Source: Oligoflexia bacterium
GTDB lineage: Bacteria > Bdellovibrionota > Bdellovibrionia > JABDDW01
Length of the DNA: 49,119 bases
Direction of reading: 5' to 3'
Assembly (NCBI GenBank): GCA_020847095.1
Contig: JADLCR010000019.1
Span: forward strand, 1-49,119
The notes under the pieces are model-generated. The model did not search any database. It was given only the letters and a program-made list of their open reading frames with translations, and had not been told where the DNA came from. Positions 35,494 to 45,412 of the stretch are shown in pieces. The stretch's first letter is position 1, and every line of letters starts with the position of its first letter. A program made the translations under genes and the position numbers.

Positions 35494-36930
35494 CTATTCT
35501 CCCTTAAGCTTTTTCTTTAAGAGGTCATTGACAACGGTCGGTGACCCCTGACCCTTCATTTCTTTCATCACTTGTCCTACGAAAAATCCGAACAACTTAT
35601 CTTTCCCCGATCGATACTGCTCTACCTGACCGGCATTTGCGGCAATAATTTTATCGATGACGGCCTCGATCGCTTTAGTATCCGTGACTTGGACAAGACC
35701 ATTTTCTTTCACGATCTGTTCAACCGTTTTATTTGAGAATTTGCCCGCAGCCAGGTCTTCGAAAATGCCTTTGGCAATTTTACCTGACATCTGCCCTTGA
35801 TCGATCAGACGCACCAAATCTCCCAACTGATCAGCATTCACAGGAGAATCCGCAACTTCTTTTTTCTGATCATTCAAAACTCTCAGCAACTCACTCATGA
35901 TCCAGTTGCTGGTCCCTTTGGGATTATTGGATCGCTTGACCGCCGTTTCAAAATATTGAGCCAGATCCCGCGATTGCGTCAAGATTTGAGCGTCGTACCT
36001 CGGAAGCCCAAACTGCGTCGCAAATCGGTTCATTTTCTCGTAAGGCAGTTCAGGAAGTTGCTTTCTTACCCCATCGATCCATTCATCGGACAGCCTTAAT
36101 GGAAGCAAGTCGGGATCGGGAAAGTAGCGGTAGTCGTGGGCCTCTTCTTTTGATCTCATTCCGACCGTGCGGTTTTTATCCGGATCATACAGCCGTGTCT
36201 CTTGAACAATCTTTTGTCCTTGCTCAATGAGATCAATTTGACGGCCAATTTCATACTCAATCGCTTTTTCAACAAATCGGAAGCTGTTGATGTTTTTCAA
36301 TTCAACTTTAGTTCCGAATTTTTCAGCCCCTCGAGTGCGCACACTAACGTTGGCATCACACCTGAGGCTTCCTTCGTCCATGTTTCCGTCGCAAACGCCC
36401 AGATAAAGAAGCACAGAGCGTAATGCACGCAAATACTCTCCAGCCTGTTTTGGAGTTCTCATATCGGGCTCGCTCACGATCTCCAAAAGCGGGACGCTGC
36501 TTCTATTCAGGTTTACTAGACTAAATTCGCCGTGATGAGTGTTTTTTCCTGCGTCCTCTTCCATATGGATGCGCGTTACACCAACGGTCATTTCATTGCC
36601 GTCGACTAGAAAAGTAAGTTTTCCGCCAAGGCAAATCGGCTCTTCGTACTGTGATATTTGGTAACCCTTCGGAAGATCAGGGTAGAAATAATTCTTTCTG
36701 GCAAAGATGTTGTGCTTCTGTATTTTGCAATTGAGTGCAAGCCCCGTCAGAATAGCGAAATCCACTACTTGTTTGTTCAATACGGGCAACGCTCCTGGAA
36801 GTCCCGTACAGACTGGGCAAACATTTTCGTTGTCCCCATGGCCAAAGGCCGTGGGACAAGAACAAAATATTTTCGATTTCGTCAACAGTTGGGCGTGAAC
36901 CTCAAGACCAATGACAGCTTCAAAATCCAT
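35494..36930 (-). CDS. gatB: Asp/Glu-tRNA amidotransferase subunit B
   Basis: GatB binds mischarged Glu-tRNA-Gln or Asp-tRNA-Asn and activates it with ATP. The start [25 protein letters not shown] at 36930 follows AAGGAGG with 4 bases between. The GatB core and the C-terminal YqeY-like helical region (from about 330, with [36 protein letters not shown]) are complete; the length is 478. The gatA stop lies inside its first codons (11-base overlap). Confidence 0.98.
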
Positions 36931-38383
36931 GGGGCCTCCTTGGGGCCAAGCCAAGATTCTGCTCTACGGTGAATGCGGCTTGAATGATCTTTTCCTCGTC
37001 CCAGTGTTTTGCCATAAGCTGAAATCCAATGGGGAGCCCCGACTTGGTAAACCCGCAATTAACGCTTAAGGCCGGAATCCCGGCTAGCGACGGCGGCAAA
37101 GTAAAAATGTCGTTTAAATACATGGCGAGCGGGTCGTCAGCTTTTTCACCCAACTTAAACGCGGGACCTGTTGCCACAGGGGCGGCGATAACATCTACCT
37201 GTTTAAACGCTTTGACAAAATCATCGCGCAACAGCCGTCTTACCTGACAGGCTTTTTTGTAATAGGCGTCGTAATATCCTGATGAAAGCGCAAACGTTCC
37301 AAGCATAATGCGTCTTTTTGGCTCCGCACCAAATCCTTCGCCCCTTGAGCGACAGTAGAGATCCATAAGGTCTTTAGAATCTTTTGAGCGATGACCGTAC
37401 TTAACGCCATCGTATCTGGCTAAATTGGAACTCGCTTCACAGGGTGCGATTAGATAATAAACAGCTATGCCGTGGGAGGTGAGTGGCAATGAAAGCGGAA
37501 CGATTTCTGCCCCCTGAGATTTTAAAACGGCAATAGCATTATCGACGGCTGCTCGCACCTCAGGCTCAATGCCGTCTGCAAAATATTCTTTAGGCAGGCC
37601 CACTTTAAAACCTTTTACGTTTTTCACCAGTGCTTTTGAAAAATCCGGAACCGCTTGCACGGCCGTTGTGGAGTCTTTAGGGTCTTTGCCAGAAATCGCC
37701 TGAAGCATGAGAGCCGCATCTTGTACTGAATGAGTCATGGGCCCGACCTGATCTAACGAACTTGCAAATGCCACCACACCATATCTCGATACTCTTCCAT
37801 AGGTGGGCTTTATACCTGTCAGTCCGCAAAACGCTGCAGGTTCTCGAATACTTCCGCCCGTATCCGTTCCGATAGCCCCCGGGACGAGTCTTGCGGCCAC
37901 TGCTGCGGCCGAGCCTCCGCTTGAACCCCCCGGTACTCTTGATGTGTCCCAAGGATTTTTCACCGGACCAAAAGCCGAGTTTTCGTTACTCGCGCCCATT
38001 GCGAATTCATCTAAATTTGTTTTTCCAATTGTAATCGCGCCCGCGGCTTCAAGCTTTTCCACCACAGTCGAAGAATATGGCGGAACAAAATTTTCTAAAA
38101 TCTTAGATCCTGCCGTGGTGCGCACACCTTTGGTCAGCAGAATGTCCTTGATCCCAACAGGGACACCGGCGAGCAGCCCGGGATCTCGTTTTTGAGAAAC
38201 CATGCGATCAACTTTTTCCGCCTGCTCCAGCGCCTGATCGTCTGTAAGCGTAATGAAGGCGTTGAGTTCTTTATTTTTATTTTTTGCGCGAGCCAGGGCT
38301 TCTGTGGCAACAGTCTTTGCCGAAACCTCGCCGCTTCGAACTTTTTTAGCGATTTCAAAAATGCCTTGATCCAAAAGACTCAA
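36920..38383 (-). CDS. gatA: Asp/Glu-tRNA amidotransferase subunit A
   Basis: The amidase subunit releases ammonia from glutamine for transamidation. The amidase-signature catalytic triad is Lys79 (VGIKD), Ser154 (GGSSGG) and Ser178 (TDTGGSIR), at the same numbers as in Staphylococcus aureus GatA. The length of 487 is normal. It sits between gatC and gatB in the usual C-A-B order. Confidence 0.98.
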
Positions 38384-38402
38384 ATCTCTACTCTCCCGTT
38401 AA

Positions 38403-38687
38403 TTAAAGTACTGGCGGAACCTTAAACAGATTTCCCGACCGATCAGGTGCATTGGATAATAAATCATCCGGAGACAAAGATGGCTCCACTTTGTCTTCTC
38501 GAAAGTTAACGGCCATGTCCGTTGCGGTCACAAGGGGCTCAACGCCGGTCGTATCAACCTTTGAGAGTTGGCTGACATAATCCAGAATTCCGGTTAGTTG
38601 TTTGGAGTACGTTTGGACCTCTTTTTCCGTCAATTCGAGGCGGGCCAAATGAGCTATCTTGCGAATGGTTTCTTCAGAAACTGCCAT
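38403..38687 (-). CDS. gatC: Asp/Glu-tRNA amidotransferase subunit C
   Basis: The small subunit that stabilises GatA-GatB. It has the usual start (VSEETIRKIAHLARLELTEKE), the central LTGILDYVSQLSKVDT and a C-terminal LSNAPDRSGNLFKVPPVL tail. The length is 94 residues. AGGAG precedes the ATG. It is the first gene of the gatCAB-asmA-ppx-DUF192 unit, divergent from ligA. Confidence 0.97.
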   Translation of the reverse strand: MAVSEETIRKIAHLARLELTEKEVQTYSKQLTGILDYVSQLSKVDTTGVEPLVTATDMAVNFREDKVEPSLSPDDLLSNAPDRSGNLFKVPPVL

Positions 38688-38812: not shown

Positions 38813-40921
<2,109 letters not shown>

Positions 40922-40992: not shown

Positions 40993-42567
40993 GTGAGCCG
41001 CATTTTCATCACTGCCGCAATCATCAATTGTGTTTTGTCCACGACGAGTTTTGCTACCGAAAAATATCTAGTCAAAGTAAACGATCCCAACAGACTTTCA
41101 GAAATCATCTCCAAAGGTGGTCTGAGACTGGTTAATTGGATTCCACAACTTAATATCGCTGTTACCGAACCCTTAAATAAGACTTCATTAGACAAGCTCA
41201 CGATTCAAAAAATTTCTGATGACAAAGATGTCAGATATCTCGAACCAAGCAGTGTTTGGTATGCCATCGCAAAACCCACGGACCCTCGATATGGAAGTCA
41301 AACAGCTCCTCGAAAGCTCAACCTCGAAGCCGCATGGGATATCGAAACTGGAAAACCAGAAACTCTTGTTTCCGTTATCGACACGGGCGTGGATTATAAT
41401 CATGAAGATTTAGTCAATCGAATGTGGACAAACCCAAATGAAATTCCTGGTAACTCCGCTGATGACGATGGAAACGGATACGTTGACGATGTTCGGGGCT
41501 GGAATTTTGCCCTAAATAATTCTGACCCCAAAGACGGACAGTTTCACGGAACCCATGTCTCCGGGATAGTAGGCGCTGAGGCTAATAACGGAAAAGGCAT
41601 CGCCGGAACATCTTGGAACCTGCGCATTATGGCGGTCAAGTTTTTGGGCGATGATGGCACTGGACGCATAGAAAACGCCATTCCCGCAATTGTGTACTCG
41701 GCTGATAACGGAGCGAAAATTATCAACGCGAGCTGGGGAGGTGGTCCCGAATCCCAGGCGCTTAAAGATGCCATTTTATACGCGCAATCTAAAGGAGTCT
41801 TATTTGTCGCCGCCGCTGGCAACAACGGGCAAGACGCTGAGACTAAGAATTTTTACCCAGCGAGTTTTAATCTTCCAAACATGGTCACCGTAGCGGCCCT
41901 AAGCAAAAGCACCGGGCTTGCGGATTTTTCAAACTTTGGAAAAACCATAATCCATCTCGCAGCGCCCGGCCAAGATATTTTATCTCTGGGTCTTGGCAAC
42001 TCCTATCGATCCGAAAGCGGAACGAGCATGGCGGCACCCGCCGTTAGCGGAGTGGCCGCGCTCGTCTTGTCGGCTCACCCAAACATTGATGTGATCACTC
42101 TTAAAAATGCCTTGCTGAATGCTTCGCAAACTGATTCTTCATTGTCAGGAAAACTTGCTACGAATGGGGCATTGAATGCCGCGCTGGCGCTTAGCCAGTT
42201 TCAAAACGGCTTTCAACTGTGGCCCGGCAAAATGACTCTTAGTCAAAATGCCACTTTTCAAATGACGGCCTATGAGTCACAGGGTGGATTAAATTGGTCC
42301 TCAAGTGATGGCAATGTGGCGACGGTGGACGCCGCCGGCGTTGTGACGAGCCACAATACTGGAACCGCTGTCATCAATGTTCAAGATCAAACCGGCGCCT
42401 CACGCCAGGCAACAATTGTTGTCACCTCTGGGAGTTCAAGCTCGAATCCTGGCGGCGGCGGAGGATGTAATTCAAAATCAAATCCCACAGAATCGTCGCC
42501 CATTGCCCTTGGCTATTTAGGTCTTCCATTGGCTCTTGGATTAGTTCTCAGACGAAGAAAATTCTAG
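40993..42567 (+). CDS. Secreted subtilisin-like protease with sorting-type tail
   Basis: An S8 serine protease with a signal peptide (residues 1-21), an inhibitor I9-like propeptide (about 22-90) and the catalytic triad Asp130 (VIDTGVD), His185 (HGTHVSG) and Ser345 (SGTSMAAP), plus oxyanion Asn277. A Big_2-like Ig domain lies at about 412-478. The tail is Ser/Gly-rich, then Cys492 and a hydrophobic helix (about 503-519) ending in RRRKF. That three-part tail resembles MYXO-CTERM or GlyGly-CTERM sorting signals that anchor proteins on the cell surface. AGGAGGGTGAG precedes the GTG start. The 3' end overlaps the next gene by 4 bases. Confidence 0.93.
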   Translation: MSRIFITAAIINCVLSTTSFATEKYLVKVNDPNRLSEIISKGGLRLVNWIPQLNIAVTEPLNKTSLDKLTIQKISDDKDVRYLEPSSVWYAIAKPTDPRYGSQTAPRKLNLEAAWDIETGKPETLVSVIDTGVDYNHEDLVNRMWTNPNEIPGNSADDDGNGYVDDVRGWNFALNNSDPKDGQFHGTHVSGIVGAEANNGKGIAGTSWNLRIMAVKFLGDDGTGRIENAIPAIVYSADNGAKIINASWGGGPESQALKDAILYAQSKGVLFVAAAGNNGQDAETKNFYPASFNLPNMVTVAALSKSTGLADFSNFGKTIIHLAAPGQDILSLGLGNSYRSESGTSMAAPAVSGVAALVLSAHPNIDVITLKNALLNASQTDSSLSGKLATNGALNAALALSQFQNGFQLWPGKMTLSQNATFQMTAYESQGGLNWSSSDGNVATVDAAGVVTSHNTGTAVINVQDQTGASRQATIVVTSGSSSSNPGGGGGCNSKSNPTESSPIALGYLGLPLALGLVLRRRKF

Positions 42568-43532
42568 ATGCCTTCGAGGGCCGCCTCATAAAGGGCGGCC
42601 TCTTCATTTTTCTTAATTCTCAAAAGCTCTCTGGCCTTGGTCGATAGATCAAATCGATAAACTCGGTTAAGTCTGCAAGCCTCAACAAAAACTGGAAGAG
42701 CGTGTTTGTACTCTTGAATTTCAAATAGACTTCTTGCCAAATGAATCGCTGACTCTTCGTCTTGGGGGTTGAGTCCAAATGCCTTTCCGAGTTCAAACGC
42801 AGCTTGCTCATAGCTTTTTTCTTGAAAGTAAATCAATCCCTTTGCCCTACGAATAAAACTGGATGTCGGATTTTTTGAGAGACCTTGCTTCAATGCCAAA
42901 AATGCCTTTTCTCTCTTGCCTGCATCGTAAAGACTTTTTCCTAACAGCGCCCAAGAGCGGTCGTCTTTGCCATTAAGAACAGTGGCCAAAGCACATTGTC
43001 TCGCCGTTTCATCGATGAATCCGTCTTGGTAATTAATCCAACACAGCCGCGATCGTAATTCCGCCAGCGAGCCAAGATTTTTCACCGCCTCGACGTACAC
43101 TTGACGTGCTTCGTAGCGCTCTTGAGCAAGCTCCAGTATCTCACCCAAACTGAAAACGGGTAGGGACCATTTCGGTTTAAGCCTAATCGCTTGTCGTAGA
43201 GATTCGATCGATTCATCAATTTTTTTATTTTGATGTTGGGCCAGCGCCAAGTCGTAAAGAATCGATGGGTTTTTTGATTCCCTTTGAAAGGCAATTTCCA
43301 AATAGTGTAAGGATTCGGGCCATTTTCGGTAGCGCGCATAGAGCCTGCCAACATCAACGTAAGCGGCAGCGGTTTCTTGGCTGTTGAGGTAATCGGTTAT
43401 GTTTTTCTTAGCTTGAGGCCATTGTTTATTTCGGATTTGCATTTCAGCAAGTTGCAATCGCGCATCCGCTGCCCAAACTGGTGTTATTCCAGCGATGACT
43501 ATTTGAAAGACCAAAACCAAAGTGACCATCAT
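42564..43532 (-). CDS. Exported TPR protein
   Basis: A signal peptide (hydrophobic residues 3-17, cleavage near VWAA) is followed by about eight TPR units (for instance LYARYRKWPESLHYLEIAFQRES, IYFQEKSYEQAAFELGKAFGLNPQD) over the rest of the 322 residues. Probably a periplasmic or surface scaffold; the partner is unknown. No clear ribosome binding site precedes the tandem ATG codons at 43532 and 43529. Confidence 0.8.
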   Translation of the reverse strand: MMVTLVLVFQIVIAGITPVWAADARLQLAEMQIRNKQWPQAKKNITDYLNSQETAAAYVDVGRLYARYRKWPESLHYLEIAFQRESKNPSILYDLALAQHQNKKIDESIESLRQAIRLKPKWSLPVFSLGEILELAQERYEARQVYVEAVKNLGSLAELRSRLCWINYQDGFIDETARQCALATVLNGKDDRSWALLGKSLYDAGKREKAFLALKQGLSKNPTSSFIRRAKGLIYFQEKSYEQAAFELGKAFGLNPQDEESAIHLARSLFEIQEYKHALPVFVEACRLNRVYRFDLSTKARELLRIKKNEEAALYEAALEGI

Positions 43533-43607
43533 TTAAGAATCATAGAGACTCTGGGGCGTCGTTGACAAGTATTGACAACAAGACAGAGAGACCCTCATGC
43601 TGAATGT

Positions 43608-44123
43608 ATGAAAACCCTGCTGCTCTTGCCTCTCATTTACTCCCTGGCGGCGACGGCCCCCAATTGCCCGCGCCCTTTGGATATGAATGAAGAAGAAAAG
43701 GTCAGCGCCTATTGGCAGTGTCTTGAGAAAAAGCAGCAGTTTTGTGAGAAAAACTTGAAAGTTGCAGGATGCCCAGCATTTCTCGCCGGACTAAAAGCAA
43801 AACAGCCCCCCAGCTTCGAACCGGCACAAATCAACCCTCAGGATCTCTGCTCAATCCAAAAAACCGGCGCTTATATTTGTCGCCAGCAACCGTTTCATTT
43901 AATCGTTAAAGAAAAACCCAAGGATCAGCCTATAAGCTTGCCCGCGCAAAGCCGCGAGTCAGGCGAAACACCGCCAGAGCAGGGACAAACACCGAAGCAA
44001 GCACCTAATGCCGCTGCAGAGCAGGGGCCCGCTTCAAATCAAGAAGCCATTCCGCCTGAATTACAAAAAGAGATCAACAACTTGAAACAACCCGAAAGCA
44101 ATAGCGAACGCCCACCGCAATAA
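43608..44123 (+). CDS. Small exported Cys-containing protein, unknown
   Basis: I choose the ATG at 43608, which begins a signal peptide (KTLLLLPLIYSLAATAP); the open frame starts 36 bases earlier at a TTG. The mature N-terminal 80 residues hold seven cysteines, suggesting disulfides, followed by a Pro/Gln/Glu/Ala-rich, probably disordered tail. No family is recognised and no good ribosome binding site is seen. Confidence 0.6.
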   Translation: MKTLLLLPLIYSLAATAPNCPRPLDMNEEEKVSAYWQCLEKKQQFCEKNLKVAGCPAFLAGLKAKQPPSFEPAQINPQDLCSIQKTGAYICRQQPFHLIVKEKPKDQPISLPAQSRESGETPPEQGQTPKQAPNAAAEQGPASNQEAIPPELQKEINNLKQPESNSERPPQ

Positions 44124-44148
44124 AAAAACGCCCGTTTTTCAACGGGCG
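44122..44148 (-). terminator. Intrinsic terminator of the histone gene
   Basis: On the minus strand CGCCCGTT pairs with AACGGGCG around GAAA and is followed by seven T. It lies about 30 bases after the histone stop codon and overlaps the end of the convergent small exported-protein gene. Confidence 0.88.
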
Positions 44149-44177
44149 CTCATTCTTCGTTATTCGGAACAATCACA

Positions 44178-44372
44178 TTAAATGTGATCGATTACGATAT
44201 CTCGGGCCATAACTGTTTTACGGCCGTCTTGACGGGCATGTTCCATACCCTTTTCGCAAAGACGTTCAACAGCCTTGCTCAGTACGTCAATCGTTTCAGC
44301 GCTGGTATTGCACTGACCCTTTTCCTTAATGTACTTTTTAACTTTGCTCGTCACCACCAATACATCTGCCAT
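44178..44372 (-). CDS. Bacterial histone-fold DNA-binding protein
   Basis: A 64-residue protein consisting of one histone fold. The C-terminal block RKTVMARDI (residues 51-59) matches the RKT DNA contact and the ARG/ASP pair of archaeal histones such as HMf. The long central helix is about residues 25-48. It resembles the Bdellovibrio bacteriovorus histone Bd0055, which coats or bends DNA in the nucleoid. The start at 44372 has AAGGGAG 8 bases upstream; the open frame extends 23 codons further, without a matching ribosome binding site. Like Bd0055, it ends soon after helix 3, so it has no tail. A strong terminator follows. Confidence 0.92.
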   Translation of the reverse strand: MADVLVVTSKVKKYIKEKGQCNTSAETIDVLSKAVERLCEKGMEHARQDGRKTVMARDIVIDHI

Positions 44373-44503
44373 TTTGAAATCTCCCTTAAGATGGTCGTTA
44401 ATGTCGGGACCCATTAAATTGATTTTGAGCGCCAGATTCAAGATAATTCGAGTTAATGTGTGGTTTAGGTCATGATTCGATGCGTTAACTTTTGAGAATT
44501 CGG

Positions 44504-44551: not shown

Positions 44552-45412
44552 ATGCAAGGTCTTTTGGCGGCACTAATTCTGGTTTTTTCTTCGATAACCT
44601 ATGCTCAATCCCGAGATTTAGGGGGCGGCGGATTTAATATTGGAGCTACTCAAAGTCGCCGCTCTTCAGAAAGATTCAATATTTTAGATTGGATTCGAAG
44701 CCAACAAGCCGCCGTTAGAGCCCAAGACGCCAAGTATGGACGCGCCGGCGGAGGCGGTCCTGGGCCGTATCCGGATTTGACCCTCACTTACTGGCAAGAT
44801 CAAGGCGATGTCACACGCCAAAGTACAAAACTTGGAAAAACCGTCCGCAATGCCGGCCGTGTTCAATTTTTGCTCGACGACCTTTTTAGACAAGGCAACA
44901 AAACGCGCACCCTCAATATTGATTTGGGATTTGAAGCCTTTTTAAGTCAAACAAATCAATTTACTCCGGAGCCCTCCATTACCCAGCAAACTCACAAATA
45001 TTCTGAAATGGGCGGTGGTGTAGCATTGCGGCCCATTGGACGCAGCTCACAGGATACGGGCCTACTTCTCAAGGCCGGATATGTGCATCTCGACCAAACG
45101 GGACTCTGGTCAAACACCCAATCTCCAATTTCCATGTATGCCACCTACGTTGGGGCCGAAGCAAAACTGTACTTACTTCCATTTTTGGGCGGACGGGCCG
45201 AATATTTTTCCACACTTGAAACTGAAATTGGAAGTCTGAACTCAAAATGGAAAATGCAGAAATTTACTTATGGCGCCTTCTTAGAAATTTTTCTAATTAA
45301 TCTCGAAGCTCACCTTTTTAGTCACGAATTCGTCTTGACTGAGGCCGCGACGGCCAACTCGACAAAAGAAATTCATACCGGCATTGGATTTGCGGGAAGT
45401 CTACATTTCTAA
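44552..45412 (+). CDS. Predicted outer-membrane protein, unknown
   Basis: A signal peptide (residues 1-18, ending TYAQ) is followed by a Gly/Ser/Arg-rich stretch and then alternating beta-type segments with Gly and aromatic residues, finishing in GFAGSLHF, an outer-membrane barrel-like C-terminal strand. AAGGGG stands 5 bases before the ATG. It is divergent from the histone gene, about 180 bases apart, and convergent with nuoN, ending 5 bases from it. No specific family is recognised. Confidence 0.7.
   Translation: MQGLLAALILVFSSITYAQSRDLGGGGFNIGATQSRRSSERFNILDWIRSQQAAVRAQDAKYGRAGGGGPGPYPDLTLTYWQDQGDVTRQSTKLGKTVRNAGRVQFLLDDLFRQGNKTRTLNIDLGFEAFLSQTNQFTPEPSITQQTHKYSEMGGGVALRPIGRSSQDTGLLLKAGYVHLDQTGLWSNTQSPISMYATYVGAEAKLYLLPFLGGRAEYFSTLETEIGSLNSKWKMQKFTYGAFLEIFLINLEAHLFSHEFVLTEAATANSTKEIHTGIGFAGSLHF

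Follow-up and report, generated by a model that had tools for sequence, protein, structure and literature searches.

A histone gene very probably orthologous to HBb/Bd0055 of Bdellovibrio, in convergent orientation with ligA in an uncultured bacterium of the Bdellovibrio class

The histone gene and its genomic surroundings

The window analysed here (the whole stretch of 49,119 nucleotides of contig JADLCR010000019.1) encodes on its minus strand a small histone, recognised from its sequence and from phmmer matches to 8fvx and 8cmp. The features considered are the following:

35494..38687, minus strand: gatB-gatA-gatC (amidotransferase subunits), open reading frames that adjoin ligA as in relatives
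38816..40921, plus strand: ligA (NAD-dependent DNA ligase), convergent with the histone gene
44126..44151, minus strand: intrinsic terminator of the histone gene (11-bp stem, 4-nt loop, U tail)
44181..44372, minus strand: histone coding sequence, 64 amino acids (ATG at 44372, stop codon at 44178-44180)
44381..44387, minus strand: Shine-Dalgarno sequence AAGGGAG, 8 nt ahead of the ATG, read directly in the sequence

The protein product of the gene (44372..44178) is MADVLVVTSKVKKYIKEKGQCNTSAETIDVLSKAVERLCEKGMEHARQDGRKTVMARDIVIDHI. An earlier note had assigned a 64-residue histone to positions 44178-44372, without naming the strand; these coordinates proved exact, and the gene lies on the minus strand. 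The plus-strand translation of these coordinates is an unrelated peptide. An in-frame TTG at 44441 was evaluated as a longer start and rejected, since both the position of the AAGGGAG site and the start positions of relatives favour the ATG at 44372 and thereby fix the 64-residue form. The ribosome binding site and terminator that the note had attributed to the gene are both present. SD-like motifs precede the histone ATG in 118/118 copies inspected, and the terminator downstream of the stop codon is one-way, its U tail being confined to the minus strand, and has an RNA fold z-score of -4.18. A promoter scan at the gene returned a single chance-level match on the opposite strand, and no promoter is claimed.

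In relatives, ligA is usually the direct tail-to-tail neighbor of the histone gene. Of 80 loci, 75 have the two genes in convergent orientation, 52 of them separated by ≤250 bp, and beyond ligA follow gatC and gatA (about 60 of 80 loci) and gatB (55 of 80), as counted from loci that end at ≤6 kb. In L066, L032 and L034, too, these gat genes come after ligA. The window has the order gatBAC-ligA-...-histone and differs from the HBb locus of the predator Bdellovibrio bacteriovorus, where ligA is also the convergent neighbor, in the insertion of three genes (40993-44123) between ligA and the histone gene, two of which also occur in L032, a relative of the same family. Apart from ligA, the close neighbors of the histone gene in the window are not conserved. 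The main text of PMC10627809 does not mention the ligA-histone arrangement, and in the passages of PMC11317129 searched for it ligase appears solely as an assay reagent. We regard the convergence as strong evidence of orthology and as a weak hint of function, because convergent genes need not share regulation.

Two other products encoded nearby were recorded. The first (40993-42567, plus strand) is a subtilisin-like secreted protease with a Gly/Cys-rich C-terminal stretch, a hydrophobic segment and a terminal RRRK, which resemble a C-terminal sorting signal. The second (44552-45412, plus strand), divergent from the histone gene, is a probable outer-membrane or secreted protein, for which no homolog was found in the other 80 loci.

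Relationship to HBb and to other histones

Searches of the PDB sequences with phmmer retrieved Bd0055/HBb (8fvx and 8cmp, together with their DNA complexes) as the best match, at E 1.9e-29 over 64/64 residues without gaps and with 53/64 residues identical (83%). Among solved histones, HTkC, HMk, HLp and HmvA rank behind it at E 3e-6 to 6e-5, and HMfA/B match only at E ~0.6-0.8. A profile built from 48 orthologs scores HBb (8fvx/8cmp) at 141 bits and the next solved histone at 41, a gap of 100 bits. The Pfam model CBFD_NFYB_HMF matches just below its curated cut-off (21.1 versus 21.4) and the NCBIfam archaeal-histone model far below its own, which is unsurprising for a bacterial class this divergent.

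An AlphaFold2 model of the monomer, made with the same 48 orthologs, has a mean pLDDT of 83 and helices at residues 9-18 and 24-48. The top five PDB matches of the model in a structure search are all HBb structures (82-84% identity), with modest TM-scores of ~0.6, probably because the model contains one chain only and the protein is an obligate dimer. The structure-prediction comparison with Bd0055 and HMfB proposed in the earlier note points to HBb; archaeal histones (HMfA/HMfB and HTkC) are only ~23-38% identical. The relationship to Bd0055 claimed there is supported alike by sequence, by profile, by synteny and by the predicted fold. The gene at 44372..44178 is, with very little doubt, an HBb/Bd0055 ortholog, one of the alpha3 histones grouped as 'bacterial dimer'.

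Orthologs occur in 60/60 of the nearest genomes (67-91% identical), those of the same family being 86-91% identical to the window histone. The comparison with the nearest relative (pN 0.06, pS 0.86) indicates that the gene is under strong purifying selection. The E-value, the orthologs in relatives and the great excess of synonymous over nonsynonymous change place the histone far beyond chance. The HBb profile finds matches in 131 of the 144 class genomes searched, and in 103 of the 106 of good quality, at a threshold of E 1e-10; a few of these genomes are listed solely with a longer Bd3044-like protein, so that the ortholog count is slightly lower. No such long histone was found in a search of the window genome. 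The rarity of bacterial histones asserted in the earlier note does not extend to the Bdellovibrio class, within which they are near-universal. Named records among the contig matches are nearly all Bdellovibrionales or Bdellovibrionia, including B. bacteriovorus strain kdesi. One record titled as a Streptomyces griseus MAG (L097, CALQIT020000112.1) holds a Bdellovibrionia-type histone with a convergent ligA; this bin is probably mislabelled or contaminated.

The histone fold, the RKT motif and the RD clamp are also found in archaeal HMfA/HMfB and HTkC, and the RKTV and RD motifs common to archaea could suggest an archaeal histone acquired horizontally or present as a contaminant. This origin has a vanishingly small probability and was discarded, given that every one of the nearest relatives belongs to this class and that synteny agrees, in addition to the very weak HMfA/B matches. 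HMf proteins carry a sprocket arginine and a tetramerising histidine, and their alpha2 and alpha3 helices are longer; the window histone has none of these features. Its alpha2 and alpha3 are short as in HBb and align without gaps to 8fvx, unlike those of the archaeal nucleosomal histones, which PMC10627809 characterises by the sprocket arginine, a long alpha2 with a histidine and an alpha3 of three turns.

A second group with a similarly short alpha2/alpha3 fold, an RD clamp and a helix-1 SK motif is that of the bacterial face-to-face (FtF) histones, represented by the DNA-wrapping HLp of Leptospira perolatii (9qt0). Of the residues R49, N53 and R55 of the HLp tetramer interface, the window histone has R55 alone (its R51). 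The R and N of the face-to-face contact are replaced by H45 and D49 at the aligned positions, and membership in this group was rejected on these residues.

The DNA-binding surface and proposed function

In PMC11317129, the DNA contacts of HBb are given as K12, T23, S24, A25, K52, T53 and R57, together with T8, S9 and K10, and its clamp residues as D49, R51 and D58. All 13 of these positions are identical in the window histone, and across 80 distinct class sequences 11 of them show no variation. S24 has a single exception, and about a third of the sequences carry S, G or Q in place of A25. The invariant residues include T8, S9, K10, K12 and K13, which make up the TSK motif and the alpha1 lysines, as well as R51, K52, T53, V54 and D58. 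The RKTV and RD residues highlighted in the earlier note are at positions 51-54 and at R51/D58. The protein consists of a single histone fold of 64 amino acids, with no other domain, aligning end to end with 8fvx.

By analogy with HBb, two 64-residue chains would most likely form an antiparallel histone-fold dimer acting as a nucleoid-associated protein. Such a dimer would grip DNA without sequence specificity through an L1-L2 surface made up of K12, T23, S24 and A25 of one chain and K52, T53 and R57 of the other, together with the start of helix 1 (T8, S9, K10), and would compact the chromosome, probably through bending. Dimerisation, DNA binding, bending, abundance and a need for viability are all properties that the window histone would share with HBb, on whose study they rest. 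The binding mode of HBb is itself disputed: PMC10627809, which crystallised HBb dimers sheathing straight DNA, proposes end-on sheathing, and PMC11317129 proposes bending of DNA by individual dimers. The statement in the earlier note that the Bdellovibrio histone binds DNA differently from nucleosomal histones is subject to this same conflict; for the window histone, non-specific binding and bending by dimers are favoured. Its statement that the Bdellovibrio histone is essential rests on the failed deletions in PMC10627809 and, likewise, in PMC11317129; the former qualifies them as 'not an ironclad demonstration'. Four HU/IHF-family proteins are also encoded in the window genome, so that the chromosome may have a main organiser other than the histone.

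Histone-fold proteins may also perform other tasks, as do the CBF/NF-Y transcription factors, and the weak Pfam match, along with the lasting position beside ligA, could point to a role in local transcription control or in partnership with some neighboring gene. Such a role is quite improbable for a protein with an invariant DNA-contact surface and a near-universal presence, whose other close neighbors are not conserved and whose counterpart HBb binds genome-wide and non-specifically in DAP-seq (PMC11317129).

Compared with HBb (8fvx, 8fw7, 8cmp, 9ezz, 9f0e), which has the same length, the window histone carries eleven substitutions. These include His at 45 and Gln at 48, where most orthologs have Ser and Ala; H45 is common to the three genomes of the window's family (L001, L003, L004) and Q48 is found in the window histone alone among the 80 distinct sequences. 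Because S45 and A48 are among the three positions mutated in the HBb variant A48H/S45F/I61L, which brings DNA ends into FRET proximity (PMC10627809), the dimer-dimer behaviour of the window histone could differ somewhat from that of HBb at this one place. A stronger version, in which a contact through H45/Q48 leads to tetramers or DNA wrapping instead of isolated dimers, is unlikely, given that I61 is unchanged, that none of the substitutions equals an engineered one, and that R49 and N53 (HLp numbering), which mark face-to-face contact, are missing. Binding and bending by dimers thus remain the preferred reading.

Other histones of the class and the place of HBb

A second histone is encoded elsewhere in the same genome:

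Contig C14:88659-88838 (L002:1504-1683), minus strand: singlet histone L002, 60 amino acids, 39% identical to the window histone

Its C-terminal part, RAKSNGRKTVRANDF, displays the R...N.R pattern and terminal DF reported for the HLp tetramer interface (PMC12701072). A profile of 18 proteins of this type scores HLp best at 73 bits and HBb at 53. In a small tree of 60-residue histones, used for separation of the FtF group only as most of its forks are unresolved, they group with HLp at 98/99, HLp being on a long branch. The type occurs in 24 of the 144 class genomes, with a clean score gap (E 3e-25 versus 9e-16), in families f1, f3, f4, f6, f8 and f11; none was found among these 144 genomes in f2, the family that apparently holds the Bdellovibrio genomes. 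In several members (L116, L117, L122, L125, L131) the N-terminus is extended by a lysine-rich tail of 10-35 residues. Within this phylum, FtF histones have been placed in the class Bacteriovoracia (PMC11390915), and their occurrence alongside HBb in the present class may be new with respect to the main text of that source. It is conceivable, at somewhat less than even chances, that the chromatin of this bacterium is built from two histones, a DNA-bending HBb-type dimer and the HLp-like L002, which would form tetramers and wrap DNA.

The genome-reduced genera g61, g67 and g68 (1.4-2.0 Mb) have no canonical HBb, and most of their genomes hold a diverged homolog. In the six loci examined (L142-L147) the diverged gene adjoins ligA in four, and all six proteins have Leu in place of R51 and His in place of D58, so that the RD clamp is lost; KT is mostly retained. 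These proteins are possibly orthologs released from DNA-binding constraints.

The window histone itself is largely an expected member of the HBb type already known in the class, and through it an uncultured genus joins the few bacterial lineages whose chromatin is based on histones. HBb is near-universal, has an invariant DNA surface and persistently lies beside ligA, all of which argues for a core chromosomal protein of the class and against sporadic acquisition. Of greater interest than the gene alone are the ligA-histone neighborhood, the clamp-less orthologs and the two-histone genome; if dimer-type and tetramer-type histones do coexist in one bacterium, they would offer a test of how two architectures share one chromosome.
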